From contig JAOPGA020001266.1 of assembly GCA_026419775.2 (NCBI GenBank), positions 1 to 64,000 of the forward strand: 64,000 bases of DNA, in the 5' to 3' direction. This DNA comes from Acrasis kona (Eukaryota; Heterolobosea; Eutetramitea; Acrasida; Acrasidae). The position numbers and the translations under genes are program-made. A model generated the notes under the pieces. It was not told the origin of the DNA. It saw only the letters and a list, made by a program, of their open reading frames with translations, and made no database searches. The stretch's first letter is position 1, and the number at the start of each line of letters is the position of its first letter. Below are positions 4,139-55,168 of the stretch, one piece after another.

Positions 4139-5841
4139 TTGACCACATCAACAATCCCACCACTGCTCCCAAAATCAGAGTTTTACGGTGGAAGGATTTC
4201 GAAGTTTTGGAAAATCTGGAAGGCACTGGGTGTATCCAAGAAAATTTACAAAACAGTCAAGCGTGGACTCATGTTAAAAACAAAGAACTTGATATACAAA
4301 AACAAGGGTATCAATGCTCCATTAACAGAGGACCAGCTACGTTAGCTACAAGAGCATATGGACAGTCTATTGGAAGTTGGCCATCCGATTAGCCAAGGAG
4401 GAAGAGTTAGATGTCATACTAGTCTCCCCGATTCACCTGGTTCCAAAAAAGGACATTTGGAAACTTATCATCAACCTTCGCACGATCAACGAGAATTTCG
4501 AGACAATCAAATTCAAGATGGAAAGTGCGGCGGTGATTGCAGGCCATTCGGAAAGGCATGTGGGCCACCTCATTAAATCTGATTTCGGGGTACAATCACA
4601 TCAAGATTCACAACAAGTCCCACACATTCTAGGATTCCGATTTTTGAATCAAACATTTGTTTACAGGACACTACCGTTCGGTCTCAACATCGCCCTAAGG
4701 GAGTTTACGAAAGTTGTATCAGCAGTGATTCAAATATTGAGAGCAGAAGGAATTCTTGTATTCTTCTACCTGGACGACATCCTGATCCTTGCACCCATAC
4801 AAGAGCTCTCAAAATTCAATGGACAGCAAGAACGGTCGAATTGTTCCAATCCCTAGGGTTCATCATCTCAGAGGAGAAGAGTGTTCTCAAACCAACACAA
4901 AGGATGGAGCACTTGGGAGTATTCGATTTGGAGAACGGTTTGATTCAAATGTCGGAGCGAAAGGTCGAAAAGATTATTGCCACAGCCAAGAGCATTCTGC
5001 CGAGGACTAATTTGGAAAACCGCACATTGGCAATATTCATTGGAACAGTGAATTTTTCAACAATCGCGATTACTTGGCTCCTTATTTGTTCCAAATGGGA
5101 GAAGAACTACAACTGTCAGTCAAAGTAAAAGGATGGACAGAGTACCTCAAGTTGTCAGTGGATTCCAAGAAGGACATCATGCACATTTGCGAGATAATTC
5201 AATCCCACAACAGAATGCCGTTCAAGATGGACCATCCGTACCTAATCATGGCGACAGACAGCTCGAAACTGGCTTATGGAGGAGTGTGCAACTTAATAGC
5301 GATGACGGGAAGATGGCCATCGGAGGAGCAAGTACAATCCATCAATCTACTGGAGCTGAGAGCGGTAGAGAAGATGATTCAAGAGTGCGTTCCAAGGTCA
5401 CAAACTCTACAACAACTCCACATCTTCACGGACAACAACACTTGCAAGAGCTACCTGATCAAAGGGTACGGGAAGATTCCGTTATGGGAGACAGCCCAAA
5501 GAATCTACAAGATGTGCCAAGAGAGAAACATTTTGATCAGGAAAGTATCTTATGTACCAAAGCTCAAGAACGTTGGAATCAGACAATCTGTCGAGAATGT
5601 CAGAAGAGGAGTTCGAAAGAATTTGACAAGAGTGTCAAAGACAGCAATGGAGAGCATCCAACCAAGGGTTCCAAACCGTAAACTCTACATTCGGTCCGTT
5701 CCTTGTAGAGCGTTTCGCATCAGTCTCATATCGTCACGAGGAGATTCCAAGATTCTATTCAAGAGGAGATGTCATGAATTCGAATTGAGAACACCCATTA
5801 ACAGAAGCAGAGTGGTGCCAGACGCATTCTTAGACGAGTAG
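4139..5841 (+). pseudogene. Reverse transcriptase - RNase H remnant of DIRS copy B
   Basis: The RT reads in at least three frames: 4139-4345, 4377-4856 and 4841-5128. Landmarks are LLPKSEFYGGRISK (start, matching copy A), PIHLVPKK, LIINLRTINENFE, LPFGLNIALREF and the catalytic FFYLDDILILAP at about 4768-4803. The RNase H part (5074-5841) shows ATDSSKLAYGGV, SINLLELRAVEKM and FTDNNTCKSYLIKGYG, which supply the acidic metal-binding residues in the DIRS arrangement. The palm aspartate region (about 4590) is scrambled, and frameshifts near 4345, 4850 and 5590 rule out a complete polyprotein. It is a fossil, valuable mainly for classifying copy A. Confidence 0.8.
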
Positions 5842-7338: not shown

Positions 7339-8481
7339 TTATTGTACTATTTTCTTCAAAAATGCTTCAGATAGATCAATAACAAGACACTTCAGCTCTT
7401 CACTAAGTTTCTCTCTTTCTTTACAAAATAATTTTAAATCAACCAAAGAGTTTAGAGTTTTGACATTAGCTGCATTTATCAACATATTATCTTCAATGGT
7501 AGTTGCATTGATCAAGGTAACCGCTAGCATAAAAAGATCTAATTCCACAAAGCTTTTTTCCCCAATAAATTGCTTAGGTACATAACATGGATTTATGCTG
7601 GTAAAGTTGTCTCCAACTTTAATACATGAACTGTAGCAACCTAGGTTCCATCTCCCACTCATATCAATGAAAATATTTTGAAGATTGACATCAGAGTGGA
7701 TGAAGCCTTTATTATGTACCATTTTAAGTGCCTCTTTTATTCTATTACCACCTGTGACAATTGTTTGGATATCAATGCATCCTCTTTGATCATTTAAATT
7801 TTGAGGATACCGAGGCATAATTAAGCAGTCTTGATTTGATGAGCCTTCTTGAATAATTGAACGCGTTGGAACCAAACCTTCAATATTCTTTAAGAAGCTA
7901 GGTACCTCCAGCTCAAAGGATCTTTTTATAACAAACTTTCCAATAACTGGACATCCGTTAGTTTGATCAACGCCACTTACAATGTCAAATTGTGGTAGTT
8001 TCTTAGCGCTCTGGTATAAAGGGCCATCCAAAATGAAATTATAATTTTTGGTAATTAGCTTTCTTGTTTCGGTTCCTGGTTGGTCCAAAACACTTTGGTA
8101 AAGCTTTAATGCTGTTTCAGGACTATTAACAAATTCAAGCAATTTCCACCTTTTTTTGATTATTTTGTCAATCACATTTTGATTTGGAAGGAAATCCGAT
8201 TCTCTAAGCATTCTCTCAAATAATCCCTGTATTACCTTCTCCACCTACAATAAATAATCTTATTATTAATTAACACAAACCTTTGGCAATAAATAAATTT
8301 CTTTAAATCCATTTGAACTGCAATACAGTAAGTTTGTTATTGTCAAAGGCATGAAGCAATTGTCCATTCTTTTGATAGCGGATGCATTAGGAAAATATTC
8401 GCTCAATCTTGATTGGGTCTCTTCTTCACTAAATATATAATCCTCACGTATGCCTTTATAAATGATAGTTAATTCTATCAT
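7339..8481 (-). CDS. Crinkler-type effector-like protein with degenerate kinase domain (pseudokinase)
   Basis: Two exons, 8481-8281 and 8244-7339, are joined over a 36-nt GT-AG intron in phase 0, giving 368 aa. Exon 1 (67 residues) is a small header of ubiquitin-like size; exon 2 is a kinase-like fold. Residues HSDVNLQNIFID hold the HxDxxxxN catalytic loop, but where the paralogue at 16532-17736 has LTDFGSCIK this one reads LGCYSSCIK, so the metal-binding Asp of DFG is lost. The shared exon layout and the common GRW and SCIK motifs show they are paralogues. Such header-plus-kinase proteins belong to the Crinkler-RHS-type effectors of many eukaryotes; that name is inference. Catalysis is unlikely; a regulatory or binding role is possible. 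Confidence 0.65.
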
Positions 8482-8574
8482 CGTTGCTCCACCAACTTAG
8501 TTTCTTAACAAATTCTAATTAAGTCCTCTAAACAGAAAAATTTTTGGTTGCAATTAGACTTGTTGTAATTAATC

Positions 8575-8712
8575 ACTTAATCTGATTATTTGGATTAATC
8601 GGATTACTCAGATTAATCTCTGGATTATGATTATTTGGATTAATCTCTGGATTATAATTATTTAGATTAATCTAGATTATAATTCTTTGGATTATTCAGA
8701 TTATTAATTAAC
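8575..8712. repeat. Tandem GGATTAATC/GGATTAT-type repeats
   Basis: About ten imperfect copies of a 9-14 base unit around GATTAATC or GGATTAT, with spacing variants such as TTATTTGGATTAATC, lie between two convergent-side gene ends. It is simple AT-rich tandem repetition; no function is evident. Confidence 0.7.
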
Positions 8713-8716
8713 AAGT

Positions 8717-9985
8717 TTATTTGTTTTTCCAATTTTTGGCAACAAGTTCTTTCAATCGCTCTCTTCTTTCAAACAACTCTAATTGCTCTGGTGTCATGTT
8801 ATCAATATCTTCAAAAACATCTTGCAGAGATCGAGGATTTAAAAGTGATGACTTTGGTATTGACAAAGGTTCTAATGAAGATGGCTTCGATGCACAATCA
8901 AGTGTAGGCAATGATACAGGAGCAGCAGAATTAGCAGCTTCTGATAGAAGATCAAAGGGTGTGCTTTTCTTGACAGGTTCTTTGATTCTACCAGATAGAG
9001 CTTTTAACATCACTTCTCTTTGAGCATTTGGTGATAAAGGTTTAGTTGTTTGCTCAAGTTGCAAATGATGACCAGAGCCTGGGAACAAAGTTAATTGTTC
9101 TGTTTTTTTATTGTCCTCTGCTCTGCCAACAATCTCATATGTTTTGTCATCAGGTACATCAAAGCTCTCTTGGCTATAATTAGCCTGTTGTTGTTCATCC
9201 TAGATGTGTTGAAGCTGTTCAACTCTCTGGCACTCCTTTTCCTGTTCTTGTTTTCTATACTTGCTTGTAGCTTTGTATAGAATAGATGATATGTTATCCA
9301 TAGTGTCTATATATTCATCAACGTCATTAGAGCTATTTTTTGGTGATGCACTAAAATTATCATCATATTCAAAGAAGTCGGCTCCACCAATTATATTGTC
9401 ATCATCCTCATAATCATCCTCATCATCAGATGAGAGAATGACACTTGAAGCACAGTGCTTTGCATGCACTTTCGGACTTGAAAATGGTGATGGACTTGGT
9501 ATTGATACACTATTTGAAGAAGAAGATGCTTTTGTTGGGGTGACAAATGGTTGTCTTTCAACAATAGGTGTTGTACCCTTTTTCTTGAGTTTGGCCAATT
9601 CTTTTCTTTCTTGAAGAGCCTTTGACAACTCTGACTCAGTATCCGATAAACTAAAAAGTGCTTAGGATTGAGTCATATCAACAAGAGGTGTTGCAGTTTT
9701 CTTTTTATTTTTTTTGTGGGCCCTCCTTGATCTCTCATCCTCTCCACTTGATGAGCTGTCATCACTTGAGCGAGTGTTCTTCTTCATTCGCTTCTTCTTT
9801 GGTGGGATAGTAGCCTCTTCTCTATCCTCGTCATCACTTTTGGCGAAGAAGTCTGATCCATTTTCATACATGTTATCAAATAATTTCTTCAAGTTACCAA
9901 TGTTGTTTGTAATGTACCTTGCATCCATGTTTTTGACAAGATCAGTATTGTCAAAATCCTCAGACCCACGATGCGTTAATTGCAT
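8717..9985 (-). CDS. Unrecognised acidic, Ser/Lys-rich nuclear-type protein with two in-frame stops
   Basis: One minus-strand frame runs from ATG 9985 to 8717, interrupted by TAA at 9664-9662 and TAG at 9202-9200. Sequence character is continuous across both stops: an N-terminal helical segment, a PPKKKRMKKN nuclear-localisation-like patch, serine/acidic tracts, another acidic cluster, and a C-terminal helix rich in Glu/Arg/Leu. The TAG can be removed by a 60-nt in-frame intron (GTGCCA to TTATAG with a CTAAT branch-like site). The TAA could be removed only by a weak 48- or 54-nt intron. It is either an intron-containing gene or a decaying one. I do not recognise the family. Confidence 0.5.
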
Positions 9986-10186
9986 CTTTTGTTAGGGATA
10001 TATATTTAATTGACAGACATATGCAACACGATGGCTAACCGCCATAATTTCAGTTGAAATGTATTTGCATGATCCGATGTCCGGAGACTTCAAAGGTTTA
10101 TGCAAACACCGGAATATGCTCGCACGCTATAATGATAAAACTTCACTTCCATACTCGACACGAATAGTTATGATTATTGTAGTTTT

Positions 10187-10918
10187 ATGTGGGATGTTCC
10201 TAAGGAATATAATTGGATTTCCAGCGATCGTTACTCACTAGAAGAATACAAGAGAAAAACGCAGGGTCGTTGCACGCTGGAAGAACCGCAGAAAAGCCGT
10301 GAACCTGGTCATGACCAGGTTAATCGAGAGCATCTGGCCAACGACCATATATACGACAAGGTATACTTCAAGAAGAGGGCTGTATTCGACGCCATCACCA
10401 ATATTACGCAGATAAGCATCCTGACGCTGGTGATACTGTGTTGCACCGCCGTTACATCTTGCGGGGCTGCATTTCATGCACTTAACAACTATGGCATCGT
10501 GGACCACAAGGCGATGGCTTCTTTTCAACGCGTTCGTTTTGCAAATATCACCTCATCTTCGAGTTTGATAGAAAAAATCGATAGAGACAAATGGATGTTG
10601 ATCAACTCATGGTGGCTGTGCGTGTCCGACTCACTATTCTTATTAGAAAGACGCGGGATTAAGTATATAGACGATAATGCACGTCACATTCATGACATGA
10701 TGGAGTATGCACGCGTCTTGACTATCGATTATTATACGACCAGGAGACATTATGGGCGTAAAATTTTCGAGTGCTTCTCGTGGATGTTGCTTGGGTTGTT
10801 ATTGATATGGACTGTAGGACTGGATTTTCATTACAGATATAGAATATGGTGCGCTGCAAACAAAATTAAAGGCTTTTTTGACATTTTAATGTTTTGTTCT
10901 GGAATAGGAGGACTTTAA
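10187..10918 (+). CDS. Unrecognised membrane protein, 243 aa
   Basis: The frame starts at ATG 10187; an in-frame stop at 10136-10138 limits it upstream. A charged N-terminal region of about 70 residues precedes a hydrophobic helix (about residues 76-98, ISILTLVILCCTAV core). A region of about 90 residues rich in charged and aromatic residues follows. A second hydrophobic helix (about 200-218, MLLGLLLIWTVGL core) ends in a short basic tail. Two membrane spans with a soluble loop between is the simplest topology. A short 60-codon ORF at 10059-10241 overlaps its start in another frame and may be a leader or chance. No family is recognised. Confidence 0.5.
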   Translation: MWDVPKEYNWISSDRYSLEEYKRKTQGRCTLEEPQKSREPGHDQVNREHLANDHIYDKVYFKKRAVFDAITNITQISILTLVILCCTAVTSCGAAFHALNNYGIVDHKAMASFQRVRFANITSSSSLIEKIDRDKWMLINSWWLCVSDSLFLLERRGIKYIDDNARHIHDMMEYARVLTIDYYTTRRHYGRKIFECFSWMLLGLLLIWTVGLDFHYRYRIWCAANKIKGFFDILMFCSGIGGL

Positions 10919-10992
10919 TATTCTATTTTTTTGGTGGTAGATTACCTTGACAGGTAATACCATACCAACACCAAATTTAGTGAAAGCAAGAT

Positions 10993-13696
10993 TTATTTTT
11001 TTTTGCTAAAATCCAACCTGTAGAATGGTCGTATATTCGGACGGTTCTCTGCCAAGTGTTTTGCAGCCACAATCATCAAATTATTACGAGGTGGTTCGGT
11101 GAAAAGTACATCCGTGATTTGTCTGTGTGTCAGATCCGCCATAGTGACATACACAAAATAGCAATCGTTATCCTTGTATTTTTCCACTAAAGCGCCGTGC
11201 ACTCGATCATACCAAGGTGCAGGCATCTCACTTGTTTGCTGAGTAGATTTTGCGGTGATCTGCTTGCTTTTATATTGAACAAAAACACTAATAGGCTTTT
11301 TAGAATCATCAGAGGGATCAAACTCCATATAGGCATCAAGACCAATCTCACTACGTTTGAAAAAAAGTACATGATTCTTTCGATCTGCGACGGGTTTGTC
11401 GTCCACAGTTATAGCATCTTTCGGACCCACATTAACCTGCTCAATTTCAATCTTTCTCTTTGCATCCTTCGAACCTGACTCCTTCTTTTTAATAAAAAAT
11501 TCTTTTGAACGACCCACAGTAACTTTTCTAAGCGATATCATCGTTTTGGCACGTCCTTCGTCGTATACTGGAGAGTTGAACAAATCTTCTAGATTATACT
11601 CCGTGATACTATTTTTTACCAACGTGTTGATCTTGATGGCTAGTAGATTTGCCTCCAAATCCTCAAATCCCTCCCATTCCACATCTGAATTCATCAATGG
11701 AATCAGGCGTTTAAAGTAGGACACATGTGTATTGATGAGTTCCATGAAAATTGTGTGTGGAATCAAGACTTTCGCAGATTCTATTCCGGACAACATTCCA
11801 GAGCGCACCAAGTTCGTGACCCATTCCTGGTCGGGCAGCTGCAATCCGCTCAATGCGTACTCAATTAACTGTTTGTCGTGCTCTCCGCTGTCACTATATG
11901 TTTGTTTTGCTTTGAACATTCCCTTTATAGCTTCGTCTGTTTTCGAAATAACTTCCGACGCAAATTCGTCCTGTCTGTAGGATTGATTGTCGTACTCTGT
12001 GGCCATATCCTTGTATTTCGTATCCAGTAAACCTTTCGATTCATCAAAAAAAATCCTGAGATTTCTCGGTACGAGCCCCATTAACGTAGAATAGCGAACC
12101 AGCCATCTGTGATTTAATATGACGCTACCCGCTCCCTCTAAAACGAGTATACGGCGTGCTGATTCGAACGAAAGCGGTGGTAGTGGCATACATTCGGAGC
12201 TATAATCAGTAGCTGCAAACTTCACATCGGAGAGCATCACCGTACCAGAATACACCACGGTTATGAATACATTGTCTCGGATAAGGTTTGGATTGCGATG
12301 TGTATTATTGCATGAATACTGCAACAAGGCATGTTTAACTTGTCGAAACACATCCGATCCTCCTTCTTCCAGCACTTTTTGTATTTCGTCCAACACAATC
12401 ACAACAGAAACAGTATCTTGTTTTTTTAAACCAAGCTTCTCTCGATAAAAGTTGGCGATGAGAGGCATGACATTTCCCACACGAAGCGAACTTCTTAATC
12501 TTATAAAATTGTTTCCCAATCCAGTTTGAAAATTCAAAATCGGCTCATTTCGTAGTACTAGTGCGAACAATCTTGCTCCGATAATCTCATCGCCGTCTCC
12601 ATCAAACGTGTTGATTTTGCTTCCGTTCGAAAAGTCCATGAATATCTCTTGCGTTTGACTGTAAACTCCGCCCATACCTCTCATCACTCTGGTCACCTCT
12701 GCACATGCTCTTGTCTTAAAAGTTATTCTCAAGTAGTTGCATATTACATACCTTTCCGGAGCCACTTGAGCCAACCGCAAGCACAACTTTTGTCTTTTGT
12801 TTCTCGGTACCTCCTTCCTTATTTGATTCAAATTGTTGATAATTCATCAAGGCAGCACCTTGAATGACTTGTACCGCATCATCCCTGTCGCATAATTCCC
12901 CCTTAAAATCCATACTGCTCACCTTAGTAGTCAGATGTTTGTTTAGTAACTTCTTACTCGCGTTGGTTGTAAAGTGGTGGCCGTGATGTAATCTGAAGTG
13001 TTGACCGTGATGTAATTTGAAGTGTCGACAAGACCTTGTATACCTACTGTTTCATGTGTTTTTGATTGTGCTGCTTACCTGCTGCTTTGTCGAGGACCTC
13101 TACTAACACGTCGGGGTACTTGGTCTTCTTGTCAGCGCTGAGAAGTCTCCATTGCTTAAGGGTGCGGATTCCATTCGTTGTGAGCAATCGCATATATGGT
13201 TGTTTATCCTCATCTTCTATGTTATCAGACTCAGAGATGATTGTTTCCGTGTATCGCTTGGTTTCAGCATCTGAAAATGTTAATTAGACGAGAACACAAG
13301 TGCACTACCCTTTGCTGCTGCCTCACCACCACCACTGGTTGAAGCACTGCCCACTTGAGCCTGTGAATTGTTACCTCCCATCTCATCTTTGACACTTTTG
13401 CTACTACCACCTTGAATGTTTACACTCGAGCAAAAATTGTGTATATTACCTCGATGTAAAGGAATAGCATCTCCTTGATTGTTTTTGGTCTTCTTTTGTG
13501 GCTGTATTGTGCCAGCACTGCTGCCCTCATCACTTGATTGACCTCCTCTTTGTGTTTCCGCACTTTGACCATGACTACCACCATTTGATTGCTCTTTTGA
13601 ACTTTCGGGCGAGATATTCTTTCTTATTGGTTGTTCTCTTCCTGTGAGTGCGCTGCCACCCTCATCTGTGGGTGAAATCTGTTTTCTCTTTGGCAT
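10993..13696 (-). CDS. Crinkler-RHS-type effector-like P-loop NTPase with nuclease-like C-terminus
   Basis: Exons are 13696-13309 (NLS-like PKRKQ start, then Ser/Gly/Gln-rich linker), 13270-13079 (ending KYPDVLVEVLDKAAG), then from about 12913 to 12752 and 12714-10993. The last intron (37 nt) splits the Walker A motif GSSGSGKT exactly at the invariant lysine. Downstream come VSVVIVLDEIQ as Walker B-like segment and, near the C-terminus, GLDAYMEF followed by VFVQYKSKQ, a D-(x)n-QxK arrangement as in restriction-endonuclease-fold domains. NTPase plus REase-like nuclease is the classic Crinkler/RHS architecture, usually nuclear. The junction between 13079 and 12913 does not close in frame with the strong GTAAGC donor, so a frameshift, another donor, or two genes remain possible. 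Confidence 0.65.
12977..13024 (-). repeat. Two tandem 24-bp units inside the effector gene
   Basis: On the minus strand CACTTCAAATTACATCACGG.. is followed directly by CACTTCAGATTACATCACGG.., two 24-base units differing at three or four positions. The unit length is a multiple of three and the stretch is open in the frame of the next exon, encoding repeats of HFxLHHG. It lies in the unresolved intron/exon zone of the NTPase effector gene and may reflect a recent duplication that disturbed splicing. Confidence 0.7.
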
Positions 13697-13825
13697 TGTT
13701 CAAATTTGTTGATTGTAATATTCCATGAAAGGATGAGAACTTTGGAAGTGGAAATTCCGTGGTTGACAAGAAACTTCTCAGAAGTAATTACAACAGATCA
13801 GAAAGTTGCAAACAATCCGGAGTAG

Positions 13826-14146
13826 ATGAGCGACAATTCAAACACTCGCAATGCGAGAGGAACAGTTCCACCACAGTCATTTATGAGGTTGATAGCTGGA
13901 AACATACAGCAAATTCCACCACATGAATTTAGTCCACCACCGTTTGTGCATTCAAGGCAGAACAAATCTCTGGGGATCTGTTTCAAGAAAATAAGAGCCC
14001 TCACATAGAAGAATTTACACCAAAACAAGCGGTGAATGCGCCCTCGCCAGCTTCAATTAAAAAAAGATCTTATTCAACAGCAAATCCGCTGTCAATAACA
14101 CCAGTCAAAAGAGCGTCCATATCTGTCACTTCCATACAATTAACCG
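13826..14146 (+). pseudogene. Short Ser/Pro-rich reading frame, frameshifted, ending in a transposon end
   Basis: ATG 13826 opens a frame with SDNSNTRNARG and a PPHEFSPPPF segment. After about residue 45 sense character continues in another frame (AEQISGDLFQENKSPHIEEF, then APSPASIKKRSYST and TPVKRAS) up to TGA at about 14149, inside the left inverted repeat of the element at 14118-14781. It looks like the 5' part of a gene cut by that insertion and carrying one frameshift or a very short intron. Composition suggests a disordered protein with basic SIKKR and TPVKR patches. Family unknown. Confidence 0.35.
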
Positions 14147-14781
14147 GTTGACTTCCATAGTATTTTTTTCTTGGTGACCAATCGACAGCTGAACATGAAA
14201 CTTACGGTGTGTGTTCACATCGTATAGTACTTTACGCTCCTTTTTTTCCAGGGACGCTTCTTTTAAATGTATCAAGATAATTGAATAAATATAGATAAAT
14301 AAGATTAAAATAAATACTGAGACAACTCAGTCCCTTTAGCAGCATTTGCATTAGTTTAAAGTGCATCTTGTATGTTAATCAAGTCTTTAATTTTGTACGA
14401 TTATAGTTCCACTTTCATAGTGTACTTTTTTTGACATATGGCTGTTTGAAAGATAACTGTGACTTCCATAAAAATAGACAAAATGTAGTAACTGTAAGTA
14501 GAATTCTTTATTAATAGAATCGATACATTATATGAGCAAAAATAAAATCAACCTCAATTTAATGCGAGTTGAATGTTAACTGCTTGTTACAAGGGAGATG
14601 TGCTGCCATAACACAACATTACACTTCGCTTCAAAAGTTTTCGAAATCTACGAATTTTTTGCTCTTAGACGCACTGCTGCACTTCGCCAGCTTGCATCTG
14701 GTTCTGTATTAATTAATTGTATGGAAGTATGATTTATTGTATGGAAGTTGACCTGGAAATTGTATGGAAGTCACAGATATG
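14118..14781. mobile_element. Non-autonomous element with terminal inverted repeats (MITE-like), about 664 bp
   Basis: The left end CATATCTGTCACTTCCATAC.. (14118-14142) and the reverse complement of 14757-14781 agree at 23 of 25 positions. Inside both ends the word ACTTCCATACAATT recurs: the 16-mer at 14128-14143 is matched perfectly in inverse by 14713-14728, and further ACTTCCATA copies occur at 14151 and inversely at 14741. Such subterminal repeats are typical transposase-binding sites. The interior holds no convincing ORF. No clear target-site duplication was seen. Confidence 0.65.
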
Positions 14782-16280
14782 TCGTGATAGAAACTGTGGC
14801 CATATTGAAGCAAATAGAAGTACAATAAATAGACATATGCAGATTCATCATCCTACTCTCACTCCATACCCACGGTCAGTACCAAAGAAAGAACAAAAGA
14901 AACGTGAAAAGGAGAAACAAAGAGAGATTGCAAAAGCAAGTGAATCAAATAAAGAGAATATACAAGTGTTTTCGTACAAACCAAGGACACAAAAACGGGA
15001 TCGACCTTTAGGTACACAAACAGGTGATACTCCGTCACCAAAGAAGAGACTCTCTTTGAAAAATATGTATTCTCCTGTTAAATTAAGAACTTCACCTCTT
15101 CTTAAACCTGATCCTTCAAAATTACCAAAAGTTGAATGGACTAATTACAGCTGCGAACAAGGTGTAAAGTACAGGCCTATGTTCAATAATACAATACCTA
15201 TAGATGAAAAGATAGTGCTTGACTTATGTATTGAACTGGTTACTAGAGTGATTAATGAGTTTGATCCAGGAGATGATTTTAATTACATGGATATGACAGC
15301 AGAGAAAGTCGAAAAAAATATCCCACTCCACCTAGGTTATCTACTCAAAGGCATTTGTAAAAACAAATACTACCATGATAAAATGACGTCTAAAAATGAA
15401 TCTGGATTGTCAAAGACTGAAGCTAGTGCAGTTTCTTACTATTTAAAAAAAAGGATTCAGGAGTGTTATGTCTTTGTAGTCAGATTCTGAATATACGAGA
15501 CCAACATTCATATATGAAGGAGTGGGCTCTATCTAACACTGTTGTTTTTAATGTCCATTTATTGCATGATGAAGTGTGTGATAGATTAGAAACTATTGGA
15601 TTGACAGTGAATAGTACAACTAGAAAAAACCGTCTTGATTATGACAGTATAGCAAACGAGACTGGTTTGCTCAAGAGTATAAACAAGCCAACCCCAACTC
15701 TAACTCCACTTGAAAATGATGACAGTAGTGATGATGAACCTCCACCTGAATCATTAATAATACATACACCACGTGTTTGTCGTGGTCGTATTAACAGAAT
15801 AGAACCTCGTGTTATTCCAGAACAAGAAGCAACTCAACCTGTAGTTCAACTTGTAAATGAATCACTACAACCTAGAGCACTGGATTTTAGTTTGGAAGTT
15901 GATAAAGCACAAGAGCAGGAAAATGAACAAGAGCAAGGAGGCGGAATGAATTGGATGGATCAAAATCCAGTTGACCAAAATGCAAATAATCAAGATCAGG
16001 TGATTGATCTAATTCATCCAGTAGACAAAGAAGATATTCAAGTTATCAAGCGCGTTAATGATTAGTAGATATAAGAGCTGGTAATCCCAACATTACAGAG
16101 GAAGAGAACATAGAACTTGTGGAAAAGGTTACTGGTCTTTTGGATGTTTTGTCAAAAGAAATTGACCCTGAAAGAGTACAAAAAATGATCAAAAAAGCAC
16201 AAAGTATTTACTTACCAGGTTACCGACCTCCAGTTACCGATGACGACGTCGACAACGAGGAGGATGTGCACGAAGAATGA
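14717..16280 (+). CDS. Unrecognised zinc-finger-like, Lys/Glu-rich protein, probably transposon-derived, with frameshifts
   Basis: The frame enters from inside the right inverted repeat and becomes convincing at about 14775 with CRDRNCGHIEANRSTINRHM, a C/C/H/H-type finger layout. A basic region (KKEQKKREKEKQ) and PSPKKRLSL follow. A helical core (EKIVLDLCIELVTRVINEF) leads to a one-base shift near 15465 into a second frame (WALSNTVVFNVHLLHDEVCD), then acidic and Gln/Glu-rich sequence. Near 16064 another shift leads into NITEEENIELVEKV and an acidic C-terminus ending TGA 16278-16280. The central HDEVCDRLETIGL pattern recalls poorly characterised mobile-element proteins, but I cannot name a family. 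Two shifts suggest decay or unplaced small introns. Confidence 0.45.
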
Positions 16281-16283
16281 AGA

Positions 16284-16531
16284 CCGATATGGAAGTTACC
16301 CCGGGACATACTATGATTTTTCGGAGTGGGTTGACAACACTTTCTAGCGGGAGTTGAAAAAGGTCCGATGCTGACTCCTTAACACAATTTGTTAGGGATA
16401 TACTACTGTATTTTGTGCTCTTTGATACAGTATTTGTTGGCCAGCAATATCTTGTCTTTTGCAAAAATAGATCGGTCAGTTGATAAATGCCGATCAAAAA
16501 CACTTTCTAAAGTATTAAGTTTGTTTAAAAG
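16284..16531. other. Spacer upstream of the effector kinase gene
   Basis: No gene seen. It contains another TATGGAAGTTA word like those in the nearby inverted-repeat element, and presumably the promoter of the gene at 16532. Confidence 0.35.
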
Positions 16532-17736
16532 ATGCACTATCAAGCAACAGTCGTTTTTAAGCAAACAGAGAGGAAAATCTGTTTCAATGATGAAGACTCT
16601 ATGGAGCAATTATATGATTGCGTGAATGCTGCTTTTGGAGTACCGGATGGCTTCTTTATATCTATGAATGGGAGAAAATATACCCTTGATGTAAGTTTCC
16701 TCAAACTTGCTATACAAACTTCAAATGTTGTTAAACTCACATCTTATGTAAGTTAAAAATCAGTAACTATACTTAAAAACAGGGACAAAAAGCTCGGCTC
16801 ACCGGGGTATCTAATGATCAGGTGAAACGATTAAGGTCCCTCGTACAAGGATATCAAATAAATGAAAAAACCTGGAGCAAAATGGTTAACACCTTCCCAA
16901 TCAGACTATGCTTCGCCAGTAACGCTGAACAAGTATTGAAGATATATCAAGACGCTGAGCACATATTGTCAACTGCTACACGAGCAGAGCTATCCTCTAA
17001 CTTGGGTGTAAACATCTCTGGAGTACTTCCAGGGGCAATTTTAAAGTATGAAGTGTATCAGGGAACAAGAAACAATGGAGAACCCGTTGTGTTAAAAATT
17101 ATTGGAAGTGATGGAGGAGAGATTGAGGAGGAAGCAATTCGTGCGCTTGAGCTCAATAACCTTCCAAGTGGTCTTCCAATAGTGAGATCGGCAATAGAGT
17201 ATGCCACAGTAAATGGGAAAAAGTTCAAATGCTTGTTGTCAAACAAGTTCCCAACATCTGTTGCAGATCTACCACGTGGACTACCGGAGCATGTTATTCT
17301 CGAAGGAGGAAAGAGAATTTTACAAGGACTACAGTATGTTCATAATCGCGGTTATGTCCACATGGATTTAAATCCGGGTAACATCCTTGTAGACATGGAT
17401 GGTAGATGGTATCTGACAGATTTTGGGTCTTGTATAAAGGCTGGAGAGAAGGCAGTATCTTACACAAGATTTTTTTTGTTAGAAGATTTAGAATGCCTTG
17501 AAGCTCATTCTTCATATGATATGTACTCATTAGCTGTGAATCTTTTGATTCTTTTATTTGATGTTCCGGCGATCAAGAATGAGAGCAAAGGTAAAATTTC
17601 GATGGAAAAGATCAAACAAATGTGCGAGAAGGTAGAATTATTGGAGCTAAGGGTATTGATTTCAAATAACTTGGTCAAATACCCCTATACTTATAATGAA
17701 CGAAATAGTTTTATAGCAATAAAAGAATCTTACTAG
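16532..17736 (+). CDS. Crinkler-type effector-like protein kinase, 389 aa
   Basis: Exons 16532-16747 and 16783-17736 are joined over a 35-nt intron (GTAAGT...AACAG) in phase 0. Exon 1 encodes a 72-residue header with the size and beta-rich pattern of a ubiquitin-like domain. The second exon has a short linker and a kinase-like domain: VVLKI as candidate ATP-binding lysine, EEEAIRALE for the C-helix glutamate, HMDLNPGNILVD as catalytic loop with Asp and Asn, and TDFGSCIK as intact DFG. It is therefore likely active, unlike its paralogue at 7339-8481, with which it shares exon layout. Header plus kinase is a known Crinkler-RHS-type architecture; the ubiquitin-like reading of the header is by pattern only. 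Substrate unknown. Confidence 0.7.
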
Positions 17737-17963
17737 TAATGTCCTGTAACCCTTGAGTTCTGTTCTATTTTAAAAAGGTTAGGGGAACCTTAATTGCTAC
17801 CAAATGCGTTAGGGTTTAGGGTTTAGGGTAGGGTAGATCCAACTGGACCCCTCGTCCAAACATGAGTAGATACAGTATAGATACCATATACATATACAGT
17901 ATACATACCGCTCGACCTTCGTACGTAGCAAGAATCATTGGAAATTGAACAAGAAATTGAAGA
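17737..17963. other. Spacer with telomere-like tract
   Basis: No gene. It holds the TTTAGGG-type tract described separately and a TATACAGTATA-rich simple stretch (about 17870-17910). Confidence 0.5.
17809..17836 (+). repeat. Short telomere-like tract (TTAGGG/TTTAGGG)
   Basis: TTAGGG, two TTTAGGG units and two TAGGG units run without break. This resembles eukaryotic telomere repeats but is only 28 bases and lies far from any chromosome end in this window. It directly precedes a LINE endonuclease fragment, which suggests an interstitial telomeric site or element-associated repeat. Confidence 0.55.
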
Positions 17964-18380
17964 ATGGGTTACAGGAGCACGTTTGAAAGACACGACATTA
18001 TTATCGCCGGTGATTTCAGTGTCGAAATTGATGATTCTTCACAACGTGGTCGCCGCCTTACCAATCTGATGGACAAATTCCACCACTCTTCGGCAACAAC
18101 CTCGCTCACATTCTCGGAAAACTGCATTGATAACATTTTATACGGCATATCGAACGTAATAGCAGTCACTTCTAGAGTATTAAATTCGTACGAGGTTATT
18201 ACATTTCATGACTCTGACCACCAACCGATACTTCTCACATACACGGTCTTACATGAATGCATTGGTGATAAACTCATACGGTTTCCCTTTACCGAAAGGA
18301 TTGGGGTCAGTCCAAAAAAGTTTTACAAAAAAAGTGGCCACAGGACGACAGAGCACATTCATAATACCCACCCGGATTGA
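17964..18380 (+). pseudogene. APE-type endonuclease fragment of a non-LTR (LINE) retrotransposon
   Basis: A 138-codon open stretch contains IIIAGDFSVEIDD, matching the GDFN box of endonuclease/exonuclease/phosphatase domains, FSENCIDNILYG for the box near the active site, and DSDHQPILL for the C-terminal SDH box with catalytic Asp-His. The N-terminal half of the domain is missing and the frame becomes senseless after about residue 95; no RT follows. It is a 5'-truncated piece, probably from internal recombination because LINE copies are normally truncated on the other side. Confidence 0.65.
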
Positions 18381-21375: not shown

Positions 21376-23345
21376 TCAGAGCATGTATTTGTGAGTGGTT
21401 AACATAGGAACCAAACACCACTTGTCCTCTCCTAACGACAAGCCAATACACTGATTCATAATCATTGAGATTGGAATCTTTCTTGATAGACCGAATTTGC
21501 CAGATTTGTCACTAACCACGTCCACTATTGCAGTAGCACGGCCCGTCTTCTTGTCATACGAAATGGATTGGATCATGACACTCCTAAACCCATTAGAAAC
21601 TTCAAAAAGAATAATATTTACCTATGGTCTGTCGTTTGAGCGAATGAATTATTATACACTTTAGATTTGGAAGCACTTCTTGCCTACATCGTGCCATCCA
21701 TCTTAAGATAACGATAGTTTGATTGTTCCAAACCGCTTGATACTTCATCAATCAAAGTTGCGGTACTACCGTTATCCATTTGTATTTTCACTCCATCTGT
21801 GTGCTTGTCTTTTGTCAACTTCCGCTCCCAGTTTGCGGCATCCTAGCAAGTTAGATTGCAACTCAACGTAGACTTACTTTCATTTTGTTGTAGGCCATGC
21901 GTTCAGCGCCTTGAATCTTCTTTTCTCTACTTTCCGCCAGTTGGTACATGTTTATGGATCTCACTGCAGAAAATTGACACATGTAAGAACCATGTATTCC
22001 TTTCAACAAAATGTGGTTGAAGCCTTCATAAATAAAACAATTGTAGCACCACAACGGGCCGTGCAACAATACGTTTTGAACAAGATGGGTAAGATTATGA
22101 ATGTTCATGGTGCACTTGCCCTCACCATACAACCTGGAAAATTTAAGTACGAACAAATCAAGCTTGATTTGCACTGATTCCAAGTCCAAGCGTCTGATGG
22201 ACCTTGACATCAATATCCTCATTGAATCCACAAGCAACTTTAAGTGATTGAGTACTCTTCATCCAAAAACGATTGTAGTAACGGAGTTAAATACAGCAGA
22301 AAAACCATTGACTCCGATGCCTAATGTTGTTACAGGTGATGGTTTGTAGTGACTTACCTTCCAATATCCACCATGTTCTATCACTGATCGAACGTTTCGG
22401 TGAAGTATACTAACAATATTCTGTTCTTGTATTAGCTTATCAAACCGTCTCCATAAAGATGCCGCCATTCCACCCAACTCGTTTGATTTGGACCAGCAGC
22501 TCAATAATTTCTTCACCACTCCAGATGTATTATGCATTGGATCAATGGATTGACACGACACCATCGTCCAATATGGAATTTGATCTAATACTGGCACCTG
22601 TTGAATTCCATCATAATCTATCTCCTTCCCTTGATGGGCCCTAACAGATTCATAAAGATCCTTTGTACCTTGTTCCGTCCTTAGCTTGGTGCAAAAATGG
22701 TCAATCTCGTCATTGCTTACAATGGTCGGGAAAACCACTTTTTTAACGCACAACTTCCCTGGGTGCAAACACCATGAACATCCGCAGTAGGCATTATAGT
22801 TCTTCATACACAATACTCCTGCTCTTGCTGGAAGGTCGCACGATAAGTTTACAAGACGAGCCCTTACATTCAAAAGGCCGTTGCCTCTCTGTATTTGTAT
22901 CCCTTGGTCAAGAAGGTTCAAATCTTTTACAAGCGGCGCAAGGTATAGATTGAAATCAGGCTTCCCCTTCCCAAAATACAAACCACAAAACAGCACATTT
23001 ACAGCTTTGAACCTCTCTGACGGTCTCATCTCATTAATTGTCAAGTATATGGGCCAACAGTTCCATTTTGATGATTTGTAGGGACTGATTCCATCTGTGT
23101 TCAAGGTGAAGGACAAACCTCCAATTTGCTTTGTAATCTTTTCTGCGATTTTCATGTAGGACGCACCACAATATACATCATCAAGCACATCGTCCTTTTT
23201 TGTATACTCACGAATGTAATACTGGCATCGTTCAAAAAAGTCGTCTTGCTTCAACTTTTTCTTTAGTATCTCTGAAGGAGGCTTGAAAAGAAAGTAGTGC
23301 TTTAAAATCTGCCCACACTTGCAAGTTTCAGAAGTACTTCGGCTC
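21376..23345 (-). pseudogene. CACTA/Tnp2-type transposase, N-terminally truncated
   Basis: From 23345 down, the minus strand reads CKCGQILKHYF, then NTDGISPYKSSKWNCWPIYL, INEMRPSERFKAVNVLFCGLYFGKGKPD, DLPARAGVLCMKNYN, CGCSWCLHPGK, SIDPMHN and HGGYWK. A 120-nt intron (22357-22238) leads to LYGEGKCTMNIHNLTHL and GPLWCYNCFIYEGFN. These are hallmarks of Tnp2 transposases of CACTA (EnSpm) elements, including the DG and MHN catalytic regions. Further exons follow (about 21850-21690, 21690-21376), with an in-frame TAG at about 21690. The start is missing, cut about 150 bases before the NHL gene. Mostly intact, hence recent; probably inactive. Confidence 0.8.
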
Positions 23346-23496
23346 TTGCTTGTGTTTACCGGTAAACAATTATTTTAATTACCAAACCAAAAACCACCTA
23401 ATTGTAAGAGACGTGGAAAATAGAACATCGAGAGGAGAAAATCCCTACACGCAAATATATAAAACAACCGACAAACCGAATTATTACCGTTCGAAA

Positions 23497-25294
23497 ATGA
23501 AAGTAATCATCATAGCATTAATACTGCATTGTTTGATTATTGCCTCGGGAAGCAATTTGATTAGCACATTTTTATTGTCACCTTTGGTTTTGCCTGTTAA
23601 TATAGCAATAGACAACATTAACAACCTTGCATATATTGCGGACTCAAATTGCGTTAAGGTTGTGGATCGCACAAGCGGTAACATTACTACGTTCGCAGGC
23701 ACTGGTATACAAGGATATAACGGAGATGATATTCCTGCAACAACAGCACATTTAAACAAGCCATACGGGGTTGCCATAGACAATGTCAATAATCTTGTTT
23801 ACATTGCAGATACATTAAACAGCCGTATCAGAGTTATAAATCGCACAAGCGGTAACATTACTACGTTCGCAGGTACTGGCATACGAGACTATAACGGAGA
23901 TAACATAGCAGCAACACAAGCACACTTGTTTTTGCCATTTGACGTAGCGATTGATAGTGTTAACAATTTTATTTATATAGTAGATTTTGCCAATAATCGC
24001 ATCAGAGTTGTGGCCCGATCCATCGGTATCATAAGTACTGTCGCTGGTGTAGGGCAGCCTGGAAGAGACTACGACAAAGAAGATAACATTGAAGCAACAA
24101 GTTCAGAGTTTTATTATGCACAGAGGTTGGCAATAGACAACGTTAACAACCTTGTTTACATATCAGATACAGACAACCAACGTATCAGAGTTGTAGATCG
24201 TACAACTGGGAACATTAGTACATATGCTGGTTTAATAATAAAAGTACCAAAGTCTACAAGAAAATGCGGATACAATGGAGATGGTATTGAAGCAACAAGT
24301 GCAAAGTTATGTAATCCACAAGGAATAGCAGTGGACAATGTCAACAATATAGTTTACTTTGCTGACTCAGGCAACGGACGCATTGTATCTATTCCATTTG
24401 TTAATAAAGTAACAGCAACTGACATTTACTGCTTCAACATTTTAAGTACTGATCCGAGTGTATGCAGCCAAGGTAATGGGGTGTGCACATCTTATAATAG
24501 CTGTGTTTGTAAAAGAAATAGTTTTATTGGAGAACAATGTGAGATTGATCTTACAAAGATGAGCTCCTTCACACTATTAAATAATAGTGCATCTGTAGAT
24601 ATGAACATACTTAGTAACTACACAGTTGATTACTACAATGTCGATGGTTGTGGAATGGAGATTAGTTCTTTGTTAACCAACAAAACAAAATCTATATGTT
24701 TTAAACCTAGTTTCTAGTTTAATAGGTAGACAGTTTTTTATGGCACTAAGGTTCACACAACAATTTTCTTCTGGATCTGCAGTTCAGTTATATTTAAAAC
24801 CTGAATCTTCTACCTCAGAGCAAGTTGCTACGACTTCCATTCAATTCACTGATAGTGGACAGAATTTCGTAATGGAAAATAGTTCTACAATATATAGCAC
24901 AATACAAACCCAAAGTAACACCGACTATATTGTCTATATCTCTTATGATGAACAAACGAACAGATTCATATCACAGATTACAGATCTGAAAGGAAAGATT
25001 ATATCAAAAGCTACCTCTGATTTGGTGGAATCCAACTACATCAGTTCAATCTTGAAGAAGAAATACAATGTTTGTATCGGCCCATATCGCTTCGTAGACA
25101 AAGTTTGGTCGTTAGATTTTAGATTTAGAGCTCTATTTTATGGAACTAGTTTTGATGGAAGAATGATTGATCTAGATACTTCTAATGAAACAACAAACAA
25201 CAAACCTAATCTCAGAATGATTGTCATAATTATTATTACATTGTTTATTGGCTATTTGTTAGATGTTATTATGCTTCCATTTGACAATGTGTAA
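23497..25294 (+). CDS. Secreted/type I membrane protein with NHL beta-propeller repeats and EGF-like module
   Basis: ATG 23497 starts a signal peptide (MKVIIIALILHCLIIASG). At least five NHL repeats follow (about residues 35-335), each with a variant of LAIDNVNNLVYIADT..RIRVV and GNITTFAGTG. A cysteine-rich EGF-like module (VCSQGNGVC...CVC...GEQC) and a second extracellular region follow. A stop at 24715-24717 is bypassed if a 28-nt intron (GTTTTAAACC...TAATAG, phase 1) joins the frame containing ATG 24740. That part ends in a C-terminal membrane helix (MIVIIIITLFIGYLLDVIML). Without the splice there would be a secreted propeller and a separate tail-anchored ORF. A surface binding or adhesion role is inferred. 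Confidence 0.7.
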
Positions 25295-32367: not shown

Positions 32368-34895
32368 ATGCAGCACATTTTCTCGAACAATGACTATACT
32401 AATAAAAAGAGCAGTAGAAATACATACACAAAGAGGTCTTACCAGGACGAGTTGAGCTTGGATGGTGACGACTTCTTCTTCCCGAAGCAGGATTCGCCAA
32501 AAGAAACATACATTAACATCAAAAATCACAAAGAGAAAGCGTTGGAGCGCATGTGCAGCGACATTGAGAGCAAGTATGGAAGTAGTGTCGACAGCTTCTC
32601 GGGAAGTCCGTCCTCACTACTAACGTCCAGTAGTGACGAGAACGAAAATAACGCCACAGCGGACATTATCGGAAACCTGTTGAGTACTTCTACAATGTCA
32701 TCAAGCTCCACCGCGGAGAGCTTCCGGGCCGATTCATACATGGAGCAGGCTTTTAAAAAGAAGATTGCCACAAAAAGCGCTCCACCGTTGGCACCAATTG
32801 TCGCCAAATCACTGCCCATAATAGAGAAACACTTTAAGCCCATGGATAAAAACATTAATAGCTCGAATGAAAAAGAAAAGAAGAAGAGGTGGTTCAAGGC
32901 CAACTTGGAAAGCGACAGCGACGAGGACGACTATACAGACGAGGACACATGCTCTAGTCAAGACATGTCCCCGTTACATTCTAAAAATGGTTTATCATAT
33001 CCTCTCCCCTCCCGACAGTCGTCACCCACCATCTCTCTTCAAAAATCAGAATTGAGCAGGTTGATCGAGGAGGAGCAGAGAGGAAGGTCCTTTTCGAGTC
33101 CCAGCGAACCATCATCAGCCACCACATCTACTCTGTCGGCGTCAGCTTTTGAGACGCTACCGCCACAGGATGAGGACAAGTTGAAGAGATCGGAACTTAC
33201 TGTTTTTCTACTGCAACATGTTTGTAGACAGTTCAACCCCGACCCGGAGTTCTTTCAATCCATGTGCGCTCAACTTTATGATAAAGGATATTTGGACGAC
33301 GAAAAGTTTCTGGATAAGGAGTATTTGAAGAGAGCGTGCAAAGGTTTCATGGTGGACGTCCTGAAGAATGTAAGCGTGACATTATAAATGTATACTAACC
33401 ATGCCAGTGGCCACTACATAATCAGGATTCAAAAATCAAGAGATCGGAGAGCATGGGATCATTCATGAGTCATCTCACATCAGGTCAACAACGTCCATCA
33501 ACATCATCAAACATCAACTTTCAAATGCCAACAGCTGCACCCCTACACAAGCACAACAGCAGCATGCCATTCTATGACGACATGTTCTACAACCCCAGTC
33601 GATTCCAAGCTGACTTTTTGTCCAAACAAATCATTGGAAAGGGAGCGTTCGGCTGCGTCTACAAATCAAAACATCGCATCGATGGTTTCGAATATGCCAT
33701 CAAACGAGTCAAGTTCTCCTTCAAGAACGTTTCGGAGTTAGAATCGTCATACCGAATGGTAATCAGGGAAGTACATGGATTGGCATCGTGCGATCACCCC
33801 AACGTGATTCGTTACAATCAAGCATGGTTCGAACCGTGTCGACAATCAGATTATCATCCGGTGGAAGGAACGGATGGATTGAACATTTCATCGTGCGATG
33901 GTCATTGCGACGTCATGATGAGCGAATCATCCGAACATTCCTTCGCCAACAACAAGACCTCCAATGAATTGGTCGTTTCAAATCACTTTGTGCATCACCA
34001 TCCTTTTCAAACAACAACAACATCATCATCATCAACAACAACAGCGACGGACCATAACAATGCCTCCACCATACCCGATTCGCCGGTCAACATGTCTTAT
34101 TTGGAATATGCCATCGAAAGAAGGAACGACGAGGAAAAGTGGAGGACCGAAGTGAAAACATTGTTCGACAACATGTTCAACGTGAGGAATTTGAAATTCG
34201 AAATGTTCTTGTTCATTCAAATGCAACTGTGCCAACAACGCACGCTGGAGGATTGGTTGTGGAACGATGGAAGGGTCAAGGAAGGATTCGTAGATTCTAG
34301 ATCTGCATGTCGTTACATTTTACAAATTGCCAACGGCATGGAACACGTACACGAGAAGGGATTGATTCACAGGGATTTGAAACCACCCAACATTTTCTTG
34401 AGCGACGATGGCAACATTAAAATTGGAGATTTCGGATTGGCCAAATTTGCATTTCAAATGGACAACAACCTAATGATGCAATACTCTGAATCCATGGATA
34501 ATCACACGTGTGGAGTGGGGACGTTTCTATACGCATCGCCGGAGCAATTGTCTAGAAAAGATTACGATTGCAAGAGCGACGTGTTTTCGTTGGGAATCAT
34601 CTTCTTTGAAATGTTGCACCCAGTGGCCACCAGGAGCGAGAGAGCGCACGTGTTGAGTCAGGTGAGATGTGGAGTGATTCCTGATGACATGATGAAGAAA
34701 TTCCCAAAACAAATGAAACTGATTCAGTGGTGCGTGAAGGAATCTTGCGAGGACAGGCCGGACATGAAGCAAGTCGTTCAAGGCATTTTAGAATTTGAAG
34801 ACTTGAAGAATGATTTACAAGAGACCATCAAGGCGCAGCACGATATGATTCTACAGTTACAAAAAGAATTGGAAGAATTAAAATTAAAAATGTAA
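32368..34895 (+). CDS. eIF2-alpha kinase, HRI/PEK-like, 823 aa
   Basis: Exons 32368-33369 and 33426-34895 flank a 56-nt intron (GTAAGC...ATCAG) with a TACTAAC branch site. The N-terminal half is Ser/acidic-rich and disordered, ending in a helical block (LTVFLLQHVCRQF, about residue 280) that resembles the N-terminus of HRI-type kinases. The kinase domain starts with IGKGAFGCVYKSKH (about 405) and AIKRVK. It contains a large low-complexity insert (about 465-560) between the N-lobe strands, as in eIF2-alpha kinases, then LFIQMQLC, IHRDLKPPNIFL, KIGDFGLAKF, TCGVGTFLYASPEQ and a closing EDRPDMKQV. All catalytic residues are present. The expected role is phosphorylating eIF2-alpha to slow translation under stress. 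A C-terminal coiled coil ends the protein. Confidence 0.85.
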
Positions 34896-34910: not shown

Positions 34911-36354
34911 TTATTTACTACTCGTTTCCTCCAATAATTGAATGGCGGCGTTGATGGTGTCCTTGTCTTGTTTGTTTGTACATTCCCTCAATATACACTC
35001 CAATATTACAATGGAATAGTCGTGATTACCAGATGGCCCTGCTTGTCGTGCATAGCTCAGGGCGTGTCGATACAAAACGTCCTCAGCACATGCGGGCATA
35101 CAAGAATCAGCGGTCGAAAGTTGACGTAGTGCCTTTTCGAGGCTCTGCATGTCCCTGTCCATATTTACAAATCTTTCCACGAGCATCGTTTTGAGTCCAT
35201 GTGCTTGTTCGGGTGTATCCTGTATGCAGCCTAAAAGCAAGTCCATACATTTCAGATTCAAACAAAAAAGACTAGACATGGATTCGTCTTTTATTCTACT
35301 GGCCACATTGTCCACGCAACAAGCATATTCGATCCTTCTGCGTATTTGACTGCTCAGAGCAGCATTGGATATGTTATCAAAATCAAAGTCATATTCCCCC
35401 AGCGTTTTGGATTCGACGGGGACGTGATGGATTGTCGACGAGTCGTTTGACGTATCGTCAACATCATCATCATCATACACACTTTGTTTAATATATGGAT
35501 GTTCATAAAAATCTTTCAAAGTTATCCTCTTGGATGTATCCAAAAGCAACACTCTACTTATCAAATCTTTAGCGAGCGGACTAACATGAGGTGGGAAATT
35601 TATTTTTTCAAACTCAATTTTTCTTCTCAACTCTGAGGGTTTGTTGGCTCTCCATGGGAGGCGACCAGTCAATAGTTCGTACAGTATGACCCCACATGAA
35701 TACAAGTCACAACCAAAATCATACGGACGGTTGTCCATGATTTCTGGAGCCATGTAGTTTGGCGTTCCAATCATTGTTTTTGCCATTTCGCCGTTATGAA
35801 TGTGTCTTGCGAGACCAAAATCTGCAATCTTGATGACGGATAAATCTCCCATGATCGAATTCTGCTTGTTTATTTTCATTGGTCTGTCGAGAAGCAGGTT
35901 TGCAGGCTTAAGATCTCGATGTATCATGTCAGATTCATGCATGGCTTTTAGTCCGTTTGTTAAGTCTTGGAAGAATTTTTGAGCGAGTTTTGGCGGAAGA
36001 CCTCCTGGATTGTCCTCCATGAATTTTTGCAAGTCGCATTCACACTTCTCAATCACGAGATAATAATATCTCACAGATTTCTGAAATTGTTAGTGGGATG
36101 GGAAATAGACAACATACCAAAAAATCGTAAGAACGAACAATGTTATCGTTCTCTAGTTTCCTTGACATGCCAATTTCTAATTGGAGACCAGCCAATAGTT
36201 TTTCGTCGTTAATGATTTTATCGCAACTCATAACCTTAATTGCAACCTTCTTTTGTGTCTCTGTGTGATATCCTTCAAAGACCTCTCCGAACATACCGCT
36301 TCCCAATCTGTTGTTTGTCAGCGTATACTTTCCAATCTGCTTAGTGCTTGGCAT
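34911..36354 (-). CDS. ATG1: Atg1/ULK-like autophagy kinase, 468 aa
   Basis: Exons 36354-36118 and 36080-34911 join over a 37-nt intron in phase 0. ATG 36354 is chosen because the frame upstream has only TTG. Residues 5-265 are a Ser/Thr kinase domain: LGSGMFGEVFEG, VAIKVM, the Atg1-like YYLVIEKCECDLQKF, MIHRDLKPANLLL, IKIADFGLARH, GTPNYMAPEIM and DLYSCGVILYELL. The C-terminal 170 residues are helical with tetratricopeptide-like periodicity, consistent with the tandem MIT-like tail by which Atg1/ULK binds its partners. Domain order and length fit a compact Atg1. It ends 15 bases from the stop of the eIF2-alpha kinase gene, tail to tail. Role: starting autophagosome formation on starvation. 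Confidence 0.75.
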
Positions 36355-55055: not shown

Positions 55056-55168
55056 TCTTCGTTTTAGAAATGTGATCTTGTGTCCGTTTGTTGTTTGTTG
55101 GGACAAATGTCAATGTCAATAAGTTGACTAAAAACATATATATTTATTAAATCTCCGTGATTCGCACC

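Follow-up and report, generated by a model that had tools for sequence, protein, structure and literature searches.

A candidate Crinkler-RHS-like NTPase family with mosaic headers beside a diverged kinase and pseudokinase pair in Acrasis kona

The 64,000-nucleotide window analyzed here corresponds to contig C642 of the 37.35-Mb assembly of Acrasis kona, described in its genome paper as an aggregating amoeba of the Heterolobosea (PMC11589745). Three neighboring genes in the window were proposed in an initial annotation to be Crinkler-type effectors. These genes, a pseudokinase (7339-8481, minus strand), a P-loop nucleoside triphosphatase (NTPase; 10993-13696, minus strand), and a kinase (16532-17736, plus strand), were all found at those coordinates, and their domain motifs were confirmed. 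The reading that we favor, as probable although far from assured, is that a family of Crinkler-RHS (CR)-like NTPases with recombining headers stands here side by side with an unrelated, old pair formed by the kinase and the pseudokinase. The NTPase gene fits a CR protein in the broad sense, given its header recurrence and mosaic structure, with a putative nuclease fold and without being an LFLAK Crinkler; the placement of the kinase and pseudokinase among the CR-kinases is not supported. The position of the NTPase gene between the other two may be no more than coincidence. Genome searches described below cover this assembly.

In the NTPase gene, read on the minus strand, a low-complexity N-terminal part (13272..13696) carries, by eye, the basic stretches MPKRK and QPQKKTK, which resemble nuclear localization signals. 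The start ATG at 13696 is assumed, the NCBI model being partial and beginning inside this part. A header module that looks helical follows (13080..13271); it was recognized from the genome search, alignment A6, and the mosaic pattern described below. The stretch from the header to Walker A (12752..13079, introns included) was read by setting the protein P0002 against the DNA, and the intron at 12715-12751, which splits Walker A, lies at the same position in the copy on contig C766. The last exon (10993..12714) encodes the NTPase domain past Walker A, a helical middle part, and a C-terminal nuclease-like domain, and matches the NCBI model AKO1_012114 of A. kona (P0002) with 100% identity over 97% of the query. 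The motifs found were GSSGSGKT (Walker A), VVIVLDE (Walker B), and, toward the C-terminus, D518...Q538xK540 in the numbering of P0003. Both the Walker B Asp and the D...QxK motif are invariant in all four relatives aligned. In a six-body alignment (A5; C821, C76, C766, the window, C288, and the metagenome protein P0004), all six carry GxGKxR, the Walker B Asp, and QxK without change, and the Asp upstream of QxK is present in five bodies and absent in C821.

The invariance of QxK holds in bodies of which five are just 15 to 27% identical to the sixth, that of C821, and this argues against an alternative that we regard as unlikely, namely, that the family consists of ordinary intracellular ATPases (ORC- or STAND-like) with a non-nuclease C-terminal domain and with headers that differ by plain divergence. 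The Pfam matches of P0002 and P0003 do agree with that alternative, being to generic AAA families below the cut-off (for P0003, AAA_22 at E 8.8e-6, with 26.5 bits where 27 are required), as does the structural model of the NTPase, which is of low confidence and whose N-terminal part gave weak fold matches that are often ORC subunits, along with phosphoribosyltransferases. In the Pfam scan, C288 and C76 showed no AAA family, and C821 showed nothing except ACTMAP-like_C (3e-4) and AAA_19 (0.05), both under the cut-off. Four of the 50 fold matches of the same low-confidence model lie wholly past residue 400, and these are XisH, Cdn1, MspJI, and Can2, which we take to be PD-(D/E)XK-fold proteins. 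Plain divergence hardly explains why DNA identity falls off abruptly in the N-terminal part of the header, between well-matched stretches, as described below. Moreover, several diverged copies occur in this one genome, and outside it only one metagenome protein was found; a search of the protein collection with the NTPase exon and its alignment, in which only the approximately 8000 candidates with the most shared words were scored, returned two A. kona proteins and that metagenome protein.

The header was followed through the genome with a query of 64 residues from upstream of the P-loop. There were 12 matches at E<=1; nine of them, including the window, had E<1e-3. Seven of these nine places were read (the window, C766, C363, C76, C610, C821, and C744; further header loci lie on C353 and C396), with 2.1 to 2.3 kb taken downstream of the header at C363, C76, C610, and C821 and 401 bases at C744 (C744:1480-1880); the linkage of header and body was inferred from order and strand. 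An NTPase stands behind the header in five of the seven (the window, C766, C76, C821, and C744). Two types can be told apart, type 1 in the window and C766 and type 2, with GPGxGK and DEYNK, in C76 and C821. At C744 only the P-loop part was read, which by eye is nearly identical to that of C821, probably as the result of a recent duplication. The bodies themselves are 72% identical between the window and C766, 25% between C288 and C766, and 28% both between P0004 and C766 and between C76 and C821. Across the types, C76 matches P0003 by BLASTP (E 3e-12 over 203 columns), and C821 matches the type-1 profile A4 with an hhalign probability of 84%, whereas plain BLASTP of C821 against P0002 gave no match. 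The remaining two places have other sequences behind the header. At C610 a long frame follows without detectable similarity to type 1 (hhalign probability 0.2), in which SIDEVQ resembles a Walker B motif by eye only. At C363 (C363:5900-8600) no NTPase was seen within the approximately 2.2 kb read after the header, and the linker is like that of the type-2 NTPase; this copy may be a header-only protein or a broken copy. The header module is, thus, common to proteins with different C-termini: two NTPase types, one unrelated frame, and one without an NTPase. Within it, L38, W41, L44, S45, K49, L56, V59, L60, D61, and A64 are invariant in the six headers of alignment A6.

Headers and bodies do not follow the same pattern of likeness. 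Between the window and C766, with their 72% identical bodies, the N-terminal part of the header is identical at only 5/34 positions and the C-terminal part at 18/21 (Fisher 4e-7), and the N-terminal part of the window header is closest to that of C363 (21/36). The pair C76 and C821 has the reverse pattern, with 29/35 in the N-terminal part, 14/23 in the C-terminal part, and the 28% identity of the bodies. At the DNA level, measured in 40-base bins, the identity between the window and C766 is 0.69 to 0.97 over about 12550-13150, where a single bin near 13070 is gapped, and drops to 0.28 to 0.47 over about 13151-13310. It rises again to 0.72 to 0.74 in two bins at about 13350-13390 (BLAST, 83% over 13328-13379) and is low farther upstream (0.30 to 0.51). 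Since identity falls between matching stretches, it looks as if a tract of the header has been replaced, with only a 52-base island of likeness retained on the upstream side. This suggests that headers have recombined against bodies, recombination being the cause that we infer for the mosaic. At the opposite end of the gene, the DNA likeness of the two copies stops at 10993-11000, where the NTPase of the window terminates in a few Lys residues (FSKKK) and the copies on C766 and C870 continue through KNEKVK; the 3' ends therefore differ by some rearrangement.

As described in one report (PMC5289972), CR proteins combine recurring headers with diverged bodies; their headers are varied and include helical forms, an NTPase joined to a restriction endonuclease-like (REase) domain is a frequent C-terminus, and they are found in free-living eukaryotes. 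The domain layout of CRN proteins was also taken from PMC11064341. The A. kona NTPase resembles the CR NTPase-REase effectors of PMC5289972 in its order of header, P-loop NTPase, and putative REase-like domain, and CR effectors more generally in its recurring headers, diverged multicopy bodies, mobile-element neighborhood, and free-living host. It differs from them in that it has no Crinkler or RHSP profile match and its nuclease fold is putative, and in its header pattern, L..W..LS...K..LxKVLD, as opposed to the LFLAK ubiquitin-like one. A profile search for such ubiquitin-like headers, which the initial annotation had suggested, found no LFLAK match on any of the three genes: the Crinkler profile gave no match at E<=10 on the kinase header, the pseudokinase header, or P0002 (HMMER filters drop most matches above about 0.1), nor any on the C76 and C363 headers. 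Genome searches with PF07999 and PF20147, the latter of which found nothing, were uninformative, as the control genomes were also silent.

We propose that the NTPase gene is one of a dispersed A. kona family that would combine a header module, a P-loop NTPase, and a restriction endonuclease-like domain with QxK. The header may set the partner or place of action, and nucleotide binding could gate the C-terminal domain, which would cut nucleic acid, probably in the nucleus of the amoeba's own cell. Nuclear, own-cell action is proposed because no signal peptide is evident on the NTPase by eye and because its N-terminal part has the basic stretches mentioned above. The target could be invading or mobile DNA, or the genome of a rival. 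CR-type proteins are mostly known as pathogen effectors, and their original role is debated (PMC5289972); NTP-dependent conflict systems have been linked to multicellularity (PMC7159879). A. kona, which is free-living and aggregates, offers a culturable, nonpathogenic setting in which to ask what the headers do. Its family also lets one ask whether CR-type proteins first served defense against mobile DNA or conflict between cells, and the mosaic of its headers opens the shuffling step to direct test.

The kinase and pseudokinase have another organization. The kinase comprises a 72-codon header exon known from translation and a fold model (16532..16747), a 35-nt intron in phase 0 whose GT..AG borders are evident in the sequence (16748-16782), and a second exon (16783..17736) with, by eye, an approximately 80-residue linker and a kinase domain that keeps its catalytic residues in alignment A2; its Pfam Pkinase match has an E of 1.4e-15 (1.6e-15 for the second exon), and the Lys, HMD...N, and DFG are present. 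In the pseudokinase, a 67-codon header exon (8281..8481; translation, splice sites by eye) is followed by a phase-0 GT..AG intron of 36 nt (8245-8280) and by an exon with the linker and a kinase domain (7339..8244), whose Pkinase match (E 1.2e-5, 25.3 bits) is under the Pfam cut-off of 31.7. Here, the alignment has CYS in the DFG position, where relatives keep the Asp (DYG in C346 and DYA in C457). A layout shared by all three genes had been proposed, and these two do share one, a short first exon, a phase-0 intron, and one long exon; the NTPase gene departs from it, with a low-complexity first exon and, downstream of this, a header of another kind. Kinase and pseudokinase are alike (30%, E 2.2e-22) over most of both lengths and are therefore related as paralogs. 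Two further pieces are related to them: an open frame on C457, with an N-terminus that differs by eye, and a half-length piece of decayed look on C346, 60% identical to the pseudokinase over residues 145-296. The dN/dS (nonsynonymous to synonymous rate ratio) of the pseudokinase against the C346 piece is 0.29 over 152 codons, and for this reason the pseudokinase gives the impression of a protein under constraint whose catalysis has been lost, and not of a dead gene. Just past the kinase gene, telomere-like repeats, TTAGGGTTTAGGGTTTAGGG, lie at approximately 17809-17833 (plus strand), internal to the contig.

The headers of the pair are 24% identical in a MAFFT alignment, and at E<=1 neither header exon had a genome match other than itself. 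The pseudokinase header has no Pfam match. For the kinase header, an AlphaFold model with the topology bbabbab (mean pLDDT 50.7) brought PB1 domains to the top of both fold lists, with no Foldseek match at E<=0.001. Against a PB1 profile made from 11 of 12 loci (10 of them distinct; the twelfth contained stops), hhalign gave this header a score of 19.3 (probability 11%, residues 7-40), exceeded by 0/150 shuffles (maximum 16.4). Genome surveys for PB1 (19 PF00564 places) and ubiquitin (69 places) did not list the headers of the window. With low confidence, then, the kinase header may be a PB1-like beta-grasp. PB1 domains also head ordinary kinases, such as MEKK2/3, MEK5, and aPKC. Like these, the A. 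kona kinase is modeled with a short N-terminal PB1-like beta-grasp and then a kinase domain; it differs from them in having no PF00564 match, a highly diverged kinase domain, the approximately 80-residue linker, and a pseudokinase paralog. Beta-grasp headers had been named in the initial annotation as support; the kinase header is tentatively modeled as one, and the NTPase header looks helical. The combination it had set against the idea, headers lacking a ubiquitin-like fold together with housekeeping C-termini, was seen only in part. No nuclease domain was seen in either kinase; by eye, only some 80 residues separate the header from the N-lobe, and the kinase linker has no Pfam match. The two genes read better as PB1-kinase-like signaling proteins than as CR effectors, probably an old, diverged pair made up of a scaffolded signaling kinase and a catalytically dead partner with which it might interact.

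That all three genes are Crinkler-type effectors in a conflict island carried by mobile elements is, in our view, distinctly improbable. The NTPase is indeed CR-like, the kinase header is modeled as a beta-grasp, both kinase-coupled CR C-termini and CR proteins of free-living eukaryotes are reported in PMC5289972, and recent mobile-element copies lie between the genes; yet the kinase headers are common to nothing else found and differ from the NTPase header, the kinases carry no nuclease domain that we could see, and the genes lie inside no mobile-element copy found. Mobile elements do surround the genes, as previously noted. A reverse transcriptase fragment at 4326-4856 (RVT_1, E 5e-5) and, at 17964-18380, a remnant that resembles an endonuclease (E 0.0017) lie outside the three genes; neither reaches its Pfam cut-off. 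Between the pseudokinase and the NTPase gene is a repeated element (8553..9971), of which C909 has a 97% copy and other places partial ones, and a stretch at 15143-15795 has matches of approximately 70% on four contigs. An element resembling a miniature inverted-repeat transposable element (14118-14780), with 42-nt terminal inverted repeats that are 86% complementary, has a 99.8% copy of 663 bp on C861. The further proposal that the genes travel with such elements found no support. With 1.5 kb of flank compared on each side, the homology of the duplicated copies is confined to the genes (11000-13379 for the NTPase and 7356-7795 for the pseudokinase), and among the copies found of the window's elements none contains these genes. 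The mobile elements sit between the genes, and carriage of the genes by them is not shown.

The rate of change of the NTPase bears on a further alternative, that the genes no longer have a function, being pseudogenes or mobile-element cargo in decay. Between the window and C766, the dN/dS is 0.94 over 573 codons. Under neutrality, 200 simulations per setting gave a ratio of 0.77 +/- 0.12 at the observed kappa, having to reject a mean of 14 stop mutations (minimum, 4), and one of 0.94 +/- 0.15 at kappa 1, with a mean of 17 rejected (minimum, 7). Taken together, these values indicate that the frame has been kept while the amino acids change at an approximately neutral rate. Where C288 and P0004 agree, columns changed less often (30/159) than where the two differ (123/387; p 0.002), 81 further columns gapped in one of them being set aside. 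Positive selection between the window and C766 was tested and not demonstrated; the rate pattern fits fast evolution under conflict. The near-neutral rate could also reflect decay, as could the appearance of the pieces on C870 (internal stops) and C346 (half-length) and the absence of matches at E<=1e-3 for the kinase exon among the 1559 candidates that it drew from a collection of 5.8 billion proteins (the pseudokinase was left out of this search). Nevertheless, both copies of the last NTPase exon are open (window, 573 codons; C766, 584 codons), the conserved columns are spared, the pseudokinase is constrained relative to C346, and AKO1_012114 is listed as a gene by NCBI, so that decay seems very unlikely.

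The SPOK spore killers, as described in PMC12693581, unite nuclease and kinase as toxin and antidote, and this locus resembles them in bringing nuclease-like and kinase functions together and in the CR-related nuclease class. It differs in that the genes are separate, no protein at this locus joining a SPOK-type nuclease and kinase, in that the nuclease-like domain is joined to an NTPase, and in that neither drive nor killing is known for it. That this free-living discobid has a split toxin-antidote system of the SPOK type, in which a header-shuffling NTPase-nuclease arsenal would act in conflict among aggregating cells (kin discrimination or selfish killing) with the kinase pair at this locus as regulator or antidote, is a speculation to which we give very little credence.

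Viral and GTDB genome collections yielded 600 and 391 pattern stretches, respectively, none of which was confirmed as an NTPase relative, and plasmids searched with the C821 body gave none. The kinase matched 11 viral loci, only over a short stretch around the catalytic loop. Among solved structures compared by sequence, the kinase exon found generic kinases and the NTPases nothing useful; the matches of the kinase headers to antibody chains and FimC (best E 0.00086) and of the NTPase-gene header to viral VP4 (E 0.017) were taken as chance. In PADLOC, the kinase exon matched mad6 best (E 4e-16) and also PD-T4-6, which was read as generic kinase similarity, and P0003 matched only PDC-M01B (0.0038). 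NCBIfam gave no match near its cut-off. Our searches of one literature collection returned no paper joining Crinkler with Heterolobosea, or Acrasis with a retrotransposon hot spot, and neither "effector" nor "crinkler" occurs in the main text of the paper on this genome (PMC11589745); papers mentioning both Crinkler and Naegleria exist.

Elsewhere in the window, further kinases were seen at 33399-34892 (Pfam scan) and 34911-36089 (by eye). A frame at 22262-23374 (minus strand) has Transposase_21 (tnp2, E 3.8e-10) and DUF1258 matches, and the one at 23287-24714 (plus strand) encodes an NHL/teneurin-type propeller (TEN_NHL, E 1e-19). Finally, the frame at 52320-55109 (minus strand) consists of a very long Thr-Pro repeat and coincides with a strong GC skew at 52 to 56 kb.

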